Positions 34,579 through 44,471 of a DNA stretch of 46,496 nt are shown here, piece after piece. The notes beneath the pieces were generated by a model. That model saw only the letters and a list, made by a program, of their open reading frames with translations. It did no database searches and had not been told where the DNA came from. Origin of the DNA: a virus; IMG/VR virus record IMGVR_UViG_3300049043_000241, positions 1-46,496 of that record; one strand, given 5' to 3'. Each line of letters begins with the position of its first letter. Position 1 is the first letter of the stretch. The position numbers and the translations under genes are program-made.

Positions 34579-35253
34579 ACTGGCACTGTCGCTGGTTGCT
34601 GCCTGTAGTACGCAACAGAACAGCGGCATCTTGCTCCGCATTCACAGCGGCTTCCGGGAAGCGGCAGTGTGCCAATCGAGACAATACCTTGAGCCGCATA
34701 CCGCAAGCAGTCGGCACAGTGCTGCGCTTGATTGTCCAAAATGCGTCTCATGAGACTGTACCCCTGCTGCTGCTGGCGGAGTTCTGCACCCTGCCAATAG
34801 GACCCGCGAACACTTTGAGCATAAAGACCAATGCGAGCAAGGGCCATGGGAGCGGAAATGGATCGCAGAAAGCAACTGCCCAGCGAAGTTTTGTAGATAG
34901 GTGTATTCTTCGCGAAGACGCTGGCCAATACGCCCATATTCAGCACTGCCCATGTTTGCTTTGCCCCCATAGCCAATGATTGCGGCTTGAATGTGAGCAG
35001 CCTTTAGAGATTCGCGGACGCTGGACTGCCATTGATCGAGCGTGATTTGCTCGTTGATCAACATGCGCGTGAAGCGCCGAAGCAATCCATCCAGCTTGTC
35101 AATGCGGGCATCCACTAGCTTTTCGATGGACGCCTTGCTCAAAAAGCGCCCACGTTCGTCGCGATAACGTCCGCTTTTCTGGTCGTACGACCACGTTGCG
35201 TCCATCCTGGTGGACATTACAGCGTCAGTGAAGCCTGCTAGATCATTCAGCAT
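34575..35253 (-). CDS. MuF/SPP1 gp7-like minor head protein
   Basis: ATG at 35253 (MLNDLAGFTDAVMSTRMDAT), overlapping the upstream stop by 11 bp. The N-terminal part is helical (VDARIDKLDGLLRRFTRMLI, EQITLDQWQSSVRESLKAAH), then IGYGGKANMGSAEYGRIGQR, and after an indel near 34.85 kb SVRGSYWQGAELRQQQQGYS and a Cys-rich end (AQHCADCLRYA, CECGARCRCS). The order helix bundle, IGYGGKA, R.L..Q..YL..FA, then C..C...C.C..RC is that of MuF-like head morphogenesis proteins, injected or portal-associated minor head components. Confidence 0.7.
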
Positions 35254-35943
35254 TGTCGGCTTCCAGCAGGTCCTTGAAACGCGACGGAGCCTCCTCCTTC
35301 CATTGCTGAAGAGCCGCATCAACGTCGGCTTCGGAAACGAAAGCAGCTTCGTCAATGCCGCCAAGCACAATCCCGTTGATTTCCACGGGATTGATGGCGT
35401 CCACCTTGCTGCTAACCATTTTGGCTGCCCCCTTGCGCTCTGGATCGGGGTCGGCCTTACGCTTGCGAGCGACAATGGTCTGACGCTCTTCCTTGCTCAT
35501 TGCCTCGGCCTTTGCCTTTGGCAGGCACTTTGGTTTGCCTTCTTTTTCGCTGCGCCCACCACATGCCCCGAATGATCTCCCCATTGGCGCCAATTCTCAC
35601 CCATTCCTCCTTGAACCATTGATCAAGGTCGTCCATGGCAACATCGCCATCATCTCCCTTGAAGCCGCTGCCAGAACCATGCTTCTGCTTGTATAGCTCT
35701 TTGTACTTTTGAACCATGTAGCCACTTGCGTAAGCGCTTGGCCACACCTTGAACTTGGCCTTGGCTGCTGCGATGGCTTGTTGGTGAAGGTCTTTGTCCT
35801 TGAATTGGATGTCGCCGCGTTGATGCTCTAGATCCTTTTCGAGGAAAAGGCCAGCCGCGTCTAGCCACTTCTCTAGTGCCGTCCATGGGAAGAGTGCCAT
35901 TCTTCTCATCGAGCGGATCGCGGCCGCCAGGAGGCACCTTCAA
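35243..35943 (-). CDS. DUF5872-containing head-region protein
   Basis: It starts TTG or GTG just after the portal stop (KVPPGGRDPLDEKNGTLP), then in another frame GLFLEKDLEHQRGDIQFKDK, AAAKAKFKVWPSAYASGYMV, KYKELYKQKHGSGSGF and WFKEEWVRIGANGEII. An indel near 35.57 kb leads to ACGGRSEKEGKPKCLPKAKA and SKEERQTIVARKRKADPDPE. The W..E.WV.....G...(C)GGR...G.PKC.P..KA..MS..E....V.RKR pattern is the DUF5872 signature. An acidic C-terminal tail follows. Function unknown; the synteny with portal and MuF suggests a virion or packaging role. Confidence 0.65.
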
Positions 35944-35944
35944 C

Positions 35945-37316
35945 TCACCCCTTTCTGAGTGGAGCCACCCCTTGTGGAGCAGGAAGCTCGCGTACTACGG
36001 ATGGGTCGAGGGTGAGTTCCATTGACCATTCAGAGCCTCCGTAACGGGCGTCTGCCACCTCCTTAGGACTCAGCACTCCAAGTTGGATGTAACGTCCATC
36101 CACGGCGGCCACGCGGGCTCGTACATCCGCTTTCTCCCTTTCGTTCAGCTCAAACAAGTCATTGAACTTGATGCGCCATGACTCAGGCACGCGTCCATTG
36201 GTCGGTCCCATCTTGCCGAGCATGATGTAGGTCATCAGCTTCTTGAGAAGGCGATGGAAAGTGGACTGTTGGTAGTCCGCGAGCATCTTGGCGAAGTCTC
36301 GCTCCTCGCTCCTACCAGTGGAACCAAGGCCGCTCGGGCTCTCGCCAAACAATACAGTATGAGGAATCTTTGACGCCCCGATGATGTCCACGCGCATCTT
36401 TTCAAGGATTTCACCTACGCCTCCAAAGTTCCTGCTAATGAAAGCAAGCTCTTCTTTCTCCGCGTCAATGGCATAGCCGCGATAGCACGCTCTTACTCAT
36501 ATCGTTCAGCACCAAACGATCACGCACATCTTTCTCTTTGCCGGCGGCCAGCATTTGCGACAGGCCGCGAATCTTGTGGACAAAAATGTCAAACTCGCTC
36601 AGTAGCGTAGCAGCGCTGTTTAACCCTGTCCAATAATGCCTAAAGCTTTCGTAAACAGTTTGCAAACTACTCATTCCCCATCCATAGTTCCTTTGTCGAA
36701 TGCGATAGGGGAGCCAGTCGCCATCAAACCTCAGAATCCTATCCTTGTGGATTTTTGTTAACTGTGGCTGGTTAATGAGATCGCCAGAGATGATTTGATA
36801 GTAAGTTGCCTTGGCATAGTCGTAAGATTGTCTTCGTTAATAACCGGTGCAATCTGCCACCGATCCAATACTTCCATGCCCTCCACTTGATAGATCTTGC
36901 TTTTATCTACTGGTTGATCCGCACTGCGCCCATCGTCGATATAGAGCAACAAAACTGCACCTCCATAAAGGCGGGAGTTCTTAGAGGCAAGCATGAAGTT
37001 TTCAAGGATGTGCATATCCTCGATAACTTGCTCAATACCAACCACTTCTTCCGCCGCTGCGCCTTCGCCACCAAACAATACTTTGAAGCCCTTACGAGTG
37101 GCCTGCTCTGCATAGATGTCCACGATGCGCCTGTGGCAGCCATTCGCCATATAGTCCCTCTAGCTCTTCCTGGCCCAAGAAGATGATGGGCTGGGTTTGA
37201 GTGGACATGCTTTTATCTCTGCCCGCGATTCCCATGCCCGTGAGAGCGTTGGCTAAACCATCGCTGCGCAAGCCATCCGCCGTAGCGTGGCCCAAATCTA
37301 CGGTTTCTTCAGACAT
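35945..37316 (-). CDS. portal protein, DUF1073 family (about 457 codons)
   Basis: MSEETVDLGHATADGLRSDG at 37316, then QPIIFLGQEELEGLYGEWLP, RIVDIYAEQATRKGFKVLF and ASKNSRLYGGAVLLLYIDDG. After an indel near 36.83 kb come IISGDLINQPQLTKIHKDRI, WLPYRIRQRNYGWGMSSLQT, and FVHKIRGLSQMLAAGKEKDV. A further indel near 36.49 kb leads to IPHTVLFGESPSGLGSTGRS and RIKFNDLFELNEREKADVRA. LYGGAV..L.DDG, P..I.H..R...FDG..LP and HT.LFG.SP.GL..TG.SE are typical of DUF1073 portals, the 12-mer DNA channel at the head vertex. The Pfam family shares its name with the anti-CBASS protein Acb1, but the portal core is present here. Confidence 0.85.
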
Positions 37317-38497: not shown

Positions 38498-39877
38498 CCG
38501 AACTTTCTTGCTCGCAATTTGCAAAGCATGCACTTGGCGTGGAACTGTGGCCTAAGCAACGGGAAATTCTTGATAAATTTGTTCGAGAAAAATATCAATC
38601 ATGCCATTTGGGCGCTAGGTAGACGTAGCGGCAAAACATTTATGGCTGCAGTTGCTGCTGTCTACATGTGTTTTGTCCAAGATGAATTTTTCACGAGAAA
38701 AGTCCGAAAAAGGAGAAAAGTGGTACATCATTGCCGTAGCCAACGATTTGGGTCAGTCAAAAATTGCCCTCGATAATATCAGGCAGCTCATTCTAAATAG
38801 CCCTTTCCGCGAAGAAATTACCAGGGAGACATCGCTTGATATTGAAATAAGCAACGGATGCGTCTTCCAAGCAATTCCCGCTAGCGCACGTGCGTCTCGC
38901 GGTAAAGCAGTCGTAGCAATTTTGCAGGACGAGCTTGCCTTCAGCATCGAAGGTGACATGAACAGGGGGGCGGAAGCCATGTACAACGCACTATCTCCTT
39001 CCATCGCTCAGTTTGGGAAGCACGGCAAAATCATTGAACTATCTTCTCCGTGGCTCACGTCTGGGCTGTTTTTTGATCATTTCAAACAGGCGGAAAGCGG
39101 TGAATTTCCTGGGATGGAGGCCCGGCAAATTCCAACGTGGGAAATCAATCCATCGCTGCCCTTTGGTTGTGATTTTTTAGAAAGAGCAAGAAAGAAAGAC
39201 GAAGAAAGTTTCATGGTCGAGTTTGGCGCTCAATTTCGCCGCGACAATTCAGTGCTTATTGCTCCGGAGATTGTCGATACAGCAGTGAACAAAGAGCGCA
39301 ATATTCTACTGCCAAGCAAAGAATTTATGGGCACCTATGTATTGGCACTAGACCCCGCACGTGGCGGCGTGGGGAGGGATTCCTATGTGGCGTGCATTGT
39401 TCATTATGAAGGCGAGCGTTTAATAGTAGACAAGTTCCATACATTTGATGCTGATTTTGAAATTGCCGGAAAGAAGGAGGTGAATATCGCCCAAGTGGAG
39501 GCGTGGATTGAGGAGCACCATCGTATTTACGGCTTTGAGAAGTATCATCTTCGGATCAGTATAGATCTGCGGGCACCATCCAAAATATGGCGAAAAATTT
39601 TCCCGTAGCAGAGCTTACTTGGTCCGTCAGCACAAAAATGAAGGCATTTGGAAAGATGAAAGAACTCTTCAATGCCGGACTTGTCGAGCTTCCAAATCAC
39701 AAAGAAGCCATTAAACAGTTGAAGAATCTAGGCGTTATCTACAGATCCAGTGGTCAATGGTCTGTCACAGGCGGAAAGGAAAGCTCTGTGGATGACCTAG
39801 CCTTTGCGCTTGCGGCTGCCATTCTTGAAGCATCAAAAGACAATGACATTGACTGGTTGAATAGCCTGGTTCGTTAA
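38494..39877 (+). CDS. terL: terminase large subunit (about 460 codons)
   Basis: MTELSCSQFAKHALGVELWP, then WPKQREILDKF and, after an indel near 38.59 kb, the Walker A block ALGRRSGKTFMAA. A further indel near 38.68 kb leads to KWYIIAVANDLGQSKIAL. Walker B is VVAILQDELAF, with AIPASARASRGKAV just before it and IIELSSPWLTSGLFFDHF as motif III. The nuclease domain shows LALDPARGGVGRDSY (first acid) and SSVDDLAFALAAAI (last acid); a third indel near 39.56 kb affects the middle acid. ATP-driven DNA packaging motor and headful/cos nuclease. It lies divergently from the portal, and no small subunit was recognised nearby. Confidence 0.92.
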
Positions 39878-41982: not shown

Positions 41983-42135
41983 CTATTTCGACGGTAAGTG
42001 TCCTTTTATCTGAACCTTGATCGCCACTGGCCGGTGGCATAGTGACCAAGGGAAGGTCTTTTCCGCTGGCGCCGCTGCATTTCCCAGTAAAGCGTAGCCC
42101 AAGCCAAGTCCGAAGTCAAGGCTGGTACTAGGCAC
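41983..42135 (-). CDS. small gene coupled to the RNR beta subunit, 50 aa
   Basis: GTG at 42135 shares a base with the TAG of the beta-subunit gene (TAGTG). It reads PSTSLDFGLGLGYALLGNAA then APAEKTFPWSLCHRP and a basic end. The G/L-rich segment (FGLGLGYALLG) could be a short membrane helix. It is the last frame before a terminator. No family recognised; a small RNR-linked or host-takeover peptide is only a guess. Confidence 0.4.
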   Translation of the reverse strand: MPSTSLDFGLGLGYALLGNAAAPAEKTFPWSLCHRPVAIKVQIKGHLPSK

Positions 42136-42878
42136 TATTGCCTAGAGTAGTTAGGGAGTGAAGTGTTGGGGCTTTCAAAGAAGGCAATCGCCCTGCTGCT
42201 GCGCGTGGCAGCCATCTCAGGAGCCTTACCAGTCCCAGAACAGGCTTTGCGACTGACGCAGCCAGAAGTCCTTCTCTAGCCATTGATTGGAAGAAGTGCT
42301 GAGATCGTCAAAGAGCCATGCCACAGTGGCGGCACGAAGCCTGTCAAGACTCTGGCTTTCCTTCTCGCCCAGTTCCTTGCTGACCATGGCATTGATCACC
42401 GGTGTGAACCCTCTCATCTCTGACTTATGTCTTGCGAGACAGTGCGCATACCCACATCGCCCGTTTGCCGGAAGAAAGGAAGCGCCACAAAAAAGACAGA
42501 ACGCTCAAGGATGCCTGCCTTAAGGATGGGGTGGGCAGGATGCTGATTCCATGCGCTCAAGATGCTCAGCACTTCCCGCTCGGCCTTGGCATTGGTGCCA
42601 TGAGCTGCAGCAACGTAATCAAGAGCTTCAAGGTGGCGGTCTTCGTCCTCTTGGTTGGAGCGCAGTGCTTCGATGATGCCAGGAGTGGAAGGCAGTTCCT
42701 TTTGCATGCCTTCCTCAAGAAGCTCTTTCACGGGAATCTCTAGATGGCGCAAAGCAAGAGCCTTGAACAGCGTGTCTTCGGCTCCTTCCGTCACAGTGCC
42801 CTTCGCCACTGGCACGGCCTGCCATGCACGCTTTTTCTCAAGAACATTGGCATAAGGAGATTTTTGAGCAGCAGCCAT
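42135..42878 (-). CDS. ferritin-like diiron protein, probable class I RNR beta subunit (248 codons)
   Basis: ATG at 42878, MAAAQKSPYANVLEKKRAWQ, then FKALALRHLEIPVKELLEEG and IIEALRSNQEDEDRHLEALD. EDEDRH supplies a first ExxH iron motif and LERSVFFVALPFFRQTGDVG the next helix. The second ExxH motif is visible only in a shifted frame near 42405-42425, as DERVH. After that come INAMVSKELGEKESQSLDRL, EKDFWLRQSQSLF and, after another indel near 42.24 kb, APEMAATRSSRAIAFFE and SLPNYSRQ. Much shorter than standard NrdB (about 350 aa). Directly downstream of the alpha subunit; likely its radical-generating partner. Confidence 0.7.
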
Positions 42879-42951
42879 TTTTGAGCAAGCAATGGGAAAA
42901 GAATGAAAAAGGGGAGACAACTCCCCTCATGACTGAACTATGGAGAGAAAA

Positions 42952-44396
42952 TCATTCAGCGCATGCACTGCAGAAGCCAGCTTCCACATTGCAAACGACA
43001 GGCTCTCCCTCGGCTTCGTCATCGAAGCCAAACATGCTCTTAAAGGAATCGTCTAGGGCAGCGTAAGCATCGTCTTTCCTTTGCATGTCTGGGAGGACTT
43101 GCAAGGAATAGTACATGCTTGTCTGAGGAGATTCTAGCCAATCACGAAGAAACTCTTCGTCGTAAGTGACCATATCGCCCCAAGTGTTAAACGAATAGCC
43201 GTGGAAAAGGCCAGTGCGTTGATACAGCTCAACAATGCCATTCGCTACTTTCTTATATGCTTCCCAGCCCACTTCAGCGGCAATTTCTACTTCCCCATAG
43301 TCAAAACTCTCTACGCCGAAGGTGCCGGAATCTTGATGCAACAATTCGCCCAATGGGAGGGGCAATTTCAGGAGCAGTTGTAAAGCCTTTGGAATCGACA
43401 TAGCGGTAGGAGCAAGACGCCGTAGGAGCAATGCAGAAGGCGCGTTCCATGCCGTGCTCGCGAGCCACTTCAGCAGCAGCCCAAATGCCATTGCGCAGGG
43501 CCTTCACGGCTTCACCAGCAGGCTTCTCGCCCCAGTGGTGACACCAAGGGTGAGGGTCGTCATCCAAGAATGCTTCAAGGGCATCGCCAAAGTCTTTATA
43601 GGAGATGCCATGGAGGGCAAGAAAATTGGCAAGGCCAAGCATGCCAAGGCCCACCTGCTTGTCAATGCAAGGGGGAGATATTCGCCAGTATCCCCAACGC
43701 CAGTGCGAGGATGAAGGGCGCATAGCTGCTTCATCGCATCAACAAACACTTCTCCTGAGATCTCCAACAGAACAAGCGCCCATATTGACATGCTGAAGGA
43801 GACAAGTGCCGCGATGAAGATAGTACTTCCAGGCAAACGTTTGGACGAATGCGCTTTCCATTGTGGTCGTGGCGAATCTTGTTGAGCCAAATACTGCCAG
43901 AGGCAATGCCCTTTAACAGCTCTTCAATCAATTGTCCAGAAGCCCGTTCAAGAAACTGTTTATCAACATTCACACACCTTTTCACCCATGGAAGCTCTTG
44001 GTTGGAAGCCTTAATGAAATCAATGATATCAGGATGATTGTAGTCAAGATGAAGAACTACGGCGCCGTTTTTATAGCGACCACCACGACGAAGGATTTCA
44101 TTGAGCGTGGAATAAATCTTGCCGAAGCTAACGGGACCACTCGCGACTAGGCCTTTGCCATTTTCTTCGCCTTTCCCTCGCAGCTCAGACAAATGCACTG
44201 CCACGCCAGCGCCATTGCGAAGACCATGGGAAACAAAACGCCACGACGCTTCAATGCCATCTTCCCCTTCCATTGAATCTTCTACCACAAAGACAGTGCA
44301 ACTCACCGGGAGCCTGCCCTCCAAATCATCCATCCAACTTTGCACTCGTCCTGTGCGAGCAATCTTTTCGCACTTTGCTTGTTCCTTGAGCTTCAT
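42952..44396 (-). CDS. nrdA: ribonucleotide reductase alpha subunit, short phage form (about 480 codons)
   Basis: MKLKEQAKCEKIARTGRVQS at 44396. Active-site elements in order: LPVSCTVFVV (first redox Cys), GLRNGAGVAVHLSELRGKG, GGRYKNGAVVLHLDYNHPDI, IRPNVCLEV (N-x-C-x-E radical site), and after an indel near 43.8 kb LLQHVNMGACS (second redox Cys), then IAPTASCSYRYVDSKG. Near the end TSMYYSLQVLPDM carries a YY pair like the class I radical-transfer tyrosines, and the C-terminus has CNVEAGFCSACAE, a reducible Cys tail. Reduces ribonucleotides for phage DNA synthesis. It lacks the N-terminal ATP cone and is about two thirds of the usual length. Confidence 0.88.
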
Positions 44397-44404
44397 GAGA
44401 CAAC

Positions 44405-44424
44405 AAAAGCCCGCTTAGCGGGCC
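44405..44424 (-). terminator. terminator/attenuator hairpin just before the RNR alpha gene
   Basis: Minus strand: GCCCGC-TAA-GCGGGC followed by TTTTG. The perfect 6-bp GC stem ends 13 bp before the ATG at 44396. It follows the small gene ending at 44472. A terminator this close to a start codon could attenuate RNR expression or occupy its ribosome-binding region. Confidence 0.65.
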
Positions 44425-44471
44425 GTGATCAGCAAAAGGAAGGCTAGCGCAGATCCCCTCCTCTCAACTGG

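Follow-up and report, generated by a model that had tools for sequence, protein, structure and literature searches.

Evidence for a class Ø (Cyano SP) ribonucleotide reductase gene pair in the genome of an S-CBS4-like cyanosiphovirus

To which class does a viral ribonucleotide reductase (RNR) belong when its alpha subunit is unusually short, its presumed partner is a small ferritin-like protein, and both reading frames are broken? The question is raised by a locus in IMG/VR virus record IMGVR_UViG_3300049043_000241, the whole 46,496-nucleotide stretch of which was analysed and is called the window here. An initial annotation had read the two genes as a minimal class I RNR. The capsid, portal, terminase and tape-measure genes of the window match those of Synechococcus phage S-CBS4, and the source phage is an S-CBS4-like cyanosiphovirus, that is, a cyanobacterial virus with a siphovirus-type genome. 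A megablast search against phages gave no near match, and relatives surfaced in a distant search; the closest isolate to the RNR pair is S-CBS4.

The gene pair and its broken reading frames

Both genes are visible only as pieces in the open reading frame listing, and their frames were recovered by frameshift-aware alignment to the RNR of S-CBS4 (NC_016766). Alpha aligned from 44369 to 42955 at 76.4% identity with four frameshifts, an in-frame ATG lying upstream at 44396, and beta aligned from 42878 to 42138 at 69.1% identity with three. Beta starts 73 nt downstream of alpha on the minus strand. The positions and lengths (about 480 and 248 codons) of the initial annotation were borne out by this alignment.

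42952..44396, minus strand: RNR alpha (catalytic) subunit, about 480 codons including the stop at 42954-42952 (frameshift-aware alignment)
42135..42878, minus strand: small ferritin-like RNR beta subunit, 246 aa, stop at 42137-42135 (frameshift-aware alignment)
about 43826, 43750, 43671 and 43342, minus strand: frameshifts in alpha (alignment to S-CBS4)
about 42425, 42403 and 42237, minus strand: frameshifts in beta (alignment to S-CBS4)
35246-37307: portal, an essential gene, broken in several places
38503-39871: terL (terminase), an essential gene, broken

Seven frameshifts within 2.3 kb might suggest a degenerating pseudogene, in which the shifts are biological and the enzyme of this individual phage has been inactivated. 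However, when substitutions were counted against the three nearest relatives, the third-codon-position bias persisted in every frame block and continued after each shift (50, 35 and 214 substitutions at codon positions 1, 2 and 3 within the frame blocks relative to L004), and the same kind of damage is seen in the essential portal, terL and prohead protease genes of this contig. Six of the seven shifts read as single-base insertions in the frameshift-aware alignment. One long frame is found for alpha in 129 of 143 related loci and for beta in 137 of 142; a single base is missing from beta in L004/L077, the nearest relative, too. Because of the third-position bias, the intact relatives and the equally broken portal, terminase and protease genes, the seven RNR frameshifts are most likely assembly or sequencing indels and not decay, and we consider a pseudogene exceedingly improbable. 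The bias within frame blocks, together with the single-frame relatives, argues that the RNR genes are under selection.

Frameshifts occur across the whole window, in essential genes as well, and gene-level readings of this contig must allow for them. The concern over indels voiced in the initial annotation was justified, as the last EXXH motif of beta (DERVH) is legible only with the shift at 42425.

Class assignment of the two subunits

The RNR pair is real and complete, and it adds another member to a known enzyme family. Conservation of the alpha features listed below was counted over 89 relatives.

43827..43841, minus strand: finger loop NVCLE, with the codon of the predicted catalytic C188 at 43835-43833; NVC and the final E in 89/89 relatives, NVCLE in 77/89
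43802..44300, minus strand: putative active-site redox pair C33 (44300-44298) and C198 (43804-43802); 89/89 relatives, aligned with C30/C196 of 7URG
43108..43113, minus strand: YY dyad Y428-Y429 in TSMYYSLQ, the predicted radical-transfer tyrosines; 89/89 relatives, Y420/Y421 in S-CBP4
42955..42972, minus strand: putative C-terminal redox tail CSACAE, of the CXXC type (alignment and motif reading)

These motifs had been recognized from the start, as had the shortening of alpha and the loss of its ATP cone; no ATP cone was found in alpha by Pfam, which returned only the barrel domain Ribonuc_red_lgC. The best PDB match of alpha was 7URG, the class Ø alpha of phage S-CBP4 (E 2.9e-197, spanning residues 10-451), followed by class II and class I chains at about 1e-8. 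The best NCBIfam model was the class II model NrdJ_Z, at 65 bits with a cut-off of 400, and the class I model NrdE_NrdA gave 44 bits with a cut-off of 341.

For beta, conservation was counted over 91 distinct relatives.

42822..42824, minus strand: W19, candidate radical-transfer Trp (W48-like); 91/91
42738..42740, minus strand: metal ligand E47; 91/91
42633..42647, minus strand: D78 (second sphere), E79 and H82 (metal ligands); 91/91
42621..42623, minus strand: L86 (His+4), a redox-inert Leu where most class I beta subunits have the radical tyrosine; Leu in 91/91
42504..42506, minus strand: metal ligand E125; 90/91
42404..42418, minus strand: D154-E155-R-V-H158, the second-sphere Asp and the last two metal ligands; 91/91
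42147..42149, minus strand: C-terminal Y243, with a putative Y356-like role, the chain ending three residues later (SRQ); 91/91

The adjacent ferritin-like protein with ExxH motifs (E79xxH82 and E155xxH158) is as initially described, and its set of dimetal ligands is complete once the shifts are allowed for, these being E47, E79, H82, E125, E155 and H158 (E/E/H/E/E/H) with D78/D154 in the second sphere. Both beta pieces matched PHROG 6799 (E 1e-62 for the first piece and 1e-17), a family named 'ribonucleotide reductase class Ia beta subunit'; the class Ia name is unfitting because Leu occupies the radical-Tyr site. The window beta gave no Pfam R2 match, and 25 of 36 beta relatives matched Ribonuc_red_sm weakly (best 7e-7). 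Since a sequence search of the PDB with beta gave only chance-level matches, a fold search was used. The AlphaFold model, a single chain of the closest intact beta orthologue (L070, 85% identical) built from 36 aligned sequences, had a mean pLDDT of 89.4. Its best PDB folds in Foldseek were class I R2 subunits, the Chlamydia class Ic R2 being one of the top five; the match was modest (E about 1e-3, TM-score about 0.55), which is to be expected of a protein so much shorter.

S-CBS4 is already a reference member of the Cyano SP clade (Harrison et al. 2019, PMC6370689, Table 1), for which Harrison et al. argued class I chemistry (PMC6370689). Burnim et al. 2022 renamed the clade class Ø and solved an alpha structure (PMC9531940), and in the alpha phylogeny of that study class Ø is well supported as lying outside class I. 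The pair is not an undescribed minimal RNR, given this reference member and the class Ø alpha structure 7URG. The features that mark class Ø recur in the window: an alpha of about 410-470 aa without an ATP cone (here about 480 aa, barrel domain only); the finger loop NVCLE, present in 30 of 35 class Ø sequences (PMC9669993); the YY dyad (Y428/Y429); a CXXC or CXC tail (CSAC); a ferritin-like gene of about 240 aa immediately downstream (246 aa, after 73 nt); beta ligands E,E,H,E,E,H with a D,D second sphere, the pattern given for Cyano SP in PMC6370689; and Phe or Leu in place of the radical Tyr, together with a Tyr shortly before the C-terminus (L86 and Y243), Leu and the C-terminal Tyr being described for class Ø beta in PMC9531940. 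The CXXC tail is a feature of the more ancestral class Ø sequences (PMC9531940), and the branch to which the window belongs has it.

An ML tree was built from 24 phage alphas; its taxa are few, its branches are long, and its class II members are all phage enzymes. In it a single branch cuts off each of class Ø, class I (NLCxE) and class II (NPCxE) from the rest, with 100/100 support for class Ø. This result agrees with the published phylogeny, for which it is no replacement. The window alpha stood apart from the phage class II sequences, in keeping with the initial annotation.

A conventional class I RNR of subclass Ia-Ie, merely shrunk and with its ATP cone lost, would also account for the YY dyad, the CXXC tail and an adjacent ferritin-like beta with EXXH motifs, and class I R2 is the best fold for the L070 beta model. 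Nevertheless, the finger loop is NVCLE and not NLCxE, the form shown by class I controls; alpha scores far under the NrdE_NrdA cut-off and higher with the class II model; the tree sets the class I references apart; and the window beta lacks a Pfam R2 match, though relatives match Ribonuc_red_sm weakly. Beta also has Leu86 in place of the radical-site Tyr of Ia/Ib/Id/Ie. We judge such an enzyme very unlikely. There is virtually no chance, in our estimation, that a B12-dependent class II alpha happens to lie next to an unrelated ferritin-like gene, even though NrdJ_Z is the best NCBIfam model and relatives are labelled 'class II' in older phage records, a misfiling to which the initial annotation had correctly pointed. 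The class II motif NPCxE is absent from alpha; the YY dyad of 7URG is stacked beside the catalytic Cys, in the place where class II holds its adenosyl group (PMC9531940); in relatives the next gene downstream is beta, whose metal ligands are invariant but for E125 in a single sequence; and the tree separates off the class II phage enzymes. We conclude that the identity of the pair is very probably that of a class Ø (Cyano SP) RNR of an S-CBS4-like cyanosiphovirus. What stands of the class I assignment is the YY dyad and the dimetal beta, whereas every feature tested (7URG, NVCLE and the tree) points to class Ø.

The class Ø system of S-CBP4 (7URG) resembles that of the window in alpha length (470 vs about 480), the absence of an ATP cone, NVCLE, the positions of C30/C185/C196 and YY, and a small ferritin-like beta downstream. 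S-CBP4, however, is a podovirus with a CXC tail and with alpha and beta genes that overlap or adjoin, whereas the window has a siphovirus-type genome, a CXXC tail, a 73-nt spacer with a hairpin, and a 6-residue insert near alpha residue 290. S-CBS4 shares with the window the gene pair and its architecture, a nearby phosphoesterase, the CXXC tail and 76%/69% protein identity; unlike the window it has intact frames, and its beta ends in SYGRE instead of NYSRQ.

Among known RNRs those of class Ø are the smallest, and an ancestral position relative to classes I and II has been assigned to them. The pair in the window adds no new kind of enzyme. What the locus and its intact relatives (91 distinct betas) provide is a set in which the ligands, the radical-site Leu, W19 and the terminal Tyr are essentially invariant, and the intact relatives are orthologues to try where published beta proteins are unstable.

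Radical chemistry and the hairpins around alpha

The class Ø literature (PMC6370689, PMC9531940, PMC9669993) contains no biochemically characterised beta and has not worked out the radical cofactor, and class Ø is still called uncharacterised in PMC12918982 (2026). By homology to 7URG and to class I and II RNRs, alpha would be a minimal catalytic barrel that reduces ribonucleotides by way of a thiyl radical on C188, the C33/C198 pair acting as reductant and being re-reduced by the CSAC tail. Beta would bind two metals through E47, E79/H82, E125 and E155/H158. Because Leu86 replaces the usual tyrosine, the oxidising equivalent would most likely be stored on the metal site itself, in a class Ic-like manner and possibly on Mn/Fe, from which it may pass through D154-W19...Y243 to the Y428/Y429 dyad and on to C188. 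Such an enzyme would be active in dNTP synthesis by the phage without host cobalamin. The Chlamydia trachomatis class Ic R2 (1syy) likewise has an E/E/H/E/E/H first sphere and no radical tyrosine (PMC6370689, Tables 3-4), but its solved chain of 317 residues is about 70 longer than the window beta, and it has E at the second-sphere position where the window beta has D (PMC6370689, Tables 3-4). Taken by itself, we give the Ic-like metal-centred mechanism an even chance.

Another tyrosine of beta, Y88 (His+6, 42615-42617), is invariant in 91/91 relatives and is also found in NrdB of Microcystis phage Mic1. It was set aside as an alternative radical tyrosine, since an ideal-helix estimate points it about 180 degrees away from E79; by this geometry it probably faces away from the metals. 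Class Ø-like beta genes (L162-L169) were also met on contigs from MAGs labelled Verrucomicrobia, Planctomycetota, Bacteroidetes and others, contigs that are possibly binned phage.

Terminator-like hairpins were found on both sides of alpha.

44394..44450, minus strand: alpha leader, a promoter-like GCGCTAGCCT block, then a covarying terminator-like hairpin (44424-44408), then TTTTGTTGTCTCATG; putative regulatory element
42909..42928, minus strand: terminator-like hairpin between alpha and beta; in 69/78 distinct relatives, with differing stem sequences

A hairpin lies within 90 nt upstream of alpha in 52 of 73 relatives, and among the matches listed a hairpin with a T-rich tail stands 10-12 nt before the alpha start. 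Its stem covaries, with 26 double-sided changes vs 8.1 in shuffles and none of 500 shuffles as high, a comparison among related sequences that is not a probability. The promoter-like GCTAG block was judged by eye and by conservation, and a sigma-70 scan before alpha found no site. The window has a single copy of the leader, and the scanned part of S-CBS4 has a single similar one; it is absent from the podovirus members compared (P-SSP7, S-CBP1, S-CBP4 and Syn5). In cyanosiphovirus relatives the leader is conserved as the GCGCTAGCCT block, the hairpin and then TTTTGTTGTCTYATG. The hairpins around alpha may be terminators of the upstream gene, stabilisers of the 5' end, or attenuators.

A broader proposal, which we advance tentatively and which is somewhat doubtful as a whole, is that class Ø represents a biochemically new subclass, in which a beta without a tyrosyl radical would keep the equivalent on a metal centre that is heterodinuclear (Mn/Fe-type) or new in some other way, its D/D second sphere being seen in no other subclass, and that in the siphovirus branch the expression of alpha and beta would in addition be tuned by the covarying terminator-like hairpins before alpha and between the two genes.

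An abiF RNA and other RNA elements

An RNA element and a tRNA gene, the latter starting 5 nt after the former, lie on the minus strand.

41580-41544, minus strand: abiF RNA (Rfam RF03085), 55.7 bits with a gathering score of 37
41539-41471, minus strand: tRNA-Ile(gat)

No Abi_2/AbiF protein was found in the window. The abiF RNA core is present in 109 IMG/VR stretches, with close matches in cyanophages S-SZBM1 and S-CREM1, in the latter of which the RNA had been noted earlier (PMC9964418). An Abi_2 match was found in 1 of 81 records searched (80 virus records with the exact 22-nt core and the L020 record), many of which are fragments. Of 89 distinct copies, 21 have the start of a tRNA no more than 25 nt from the core, usually at 13-18, and in the isolate S-SZBM1 the abiF RNA is likewise beside a tRNA, tRNA-Ala. 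The abiF RNA of C. difficile acts in trans, binding the AbiF toxin directly and thereby neutralising it (PMC12373285). The orphan abiF RNA is possibly a phage-borne RNA antitoxin against host AbiF, and a reasonable guess is that it is a counter-defence RNA delivered on the tRNA transcript.

In related phages, matches to the glutamine-II riboswitch (Rfam RF01704) above the gathering score occur a few kb downstream of the RNR genes.

L043 9947-10002, minus strand: glutamine-II riboswitch match (RF01704)
L030 10140-10195, minus strand: glutamine-II riboswitch match (RF01704)
L056 10352-10404, minus strand: glutamine-II riboswitch match (RF01704)
L014 8838-8891, minus strand: glutamine-II riboswitch match (RF01704)
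L005 10489-10542, minus strand: glutamine-II riboswitch match (RF01704)
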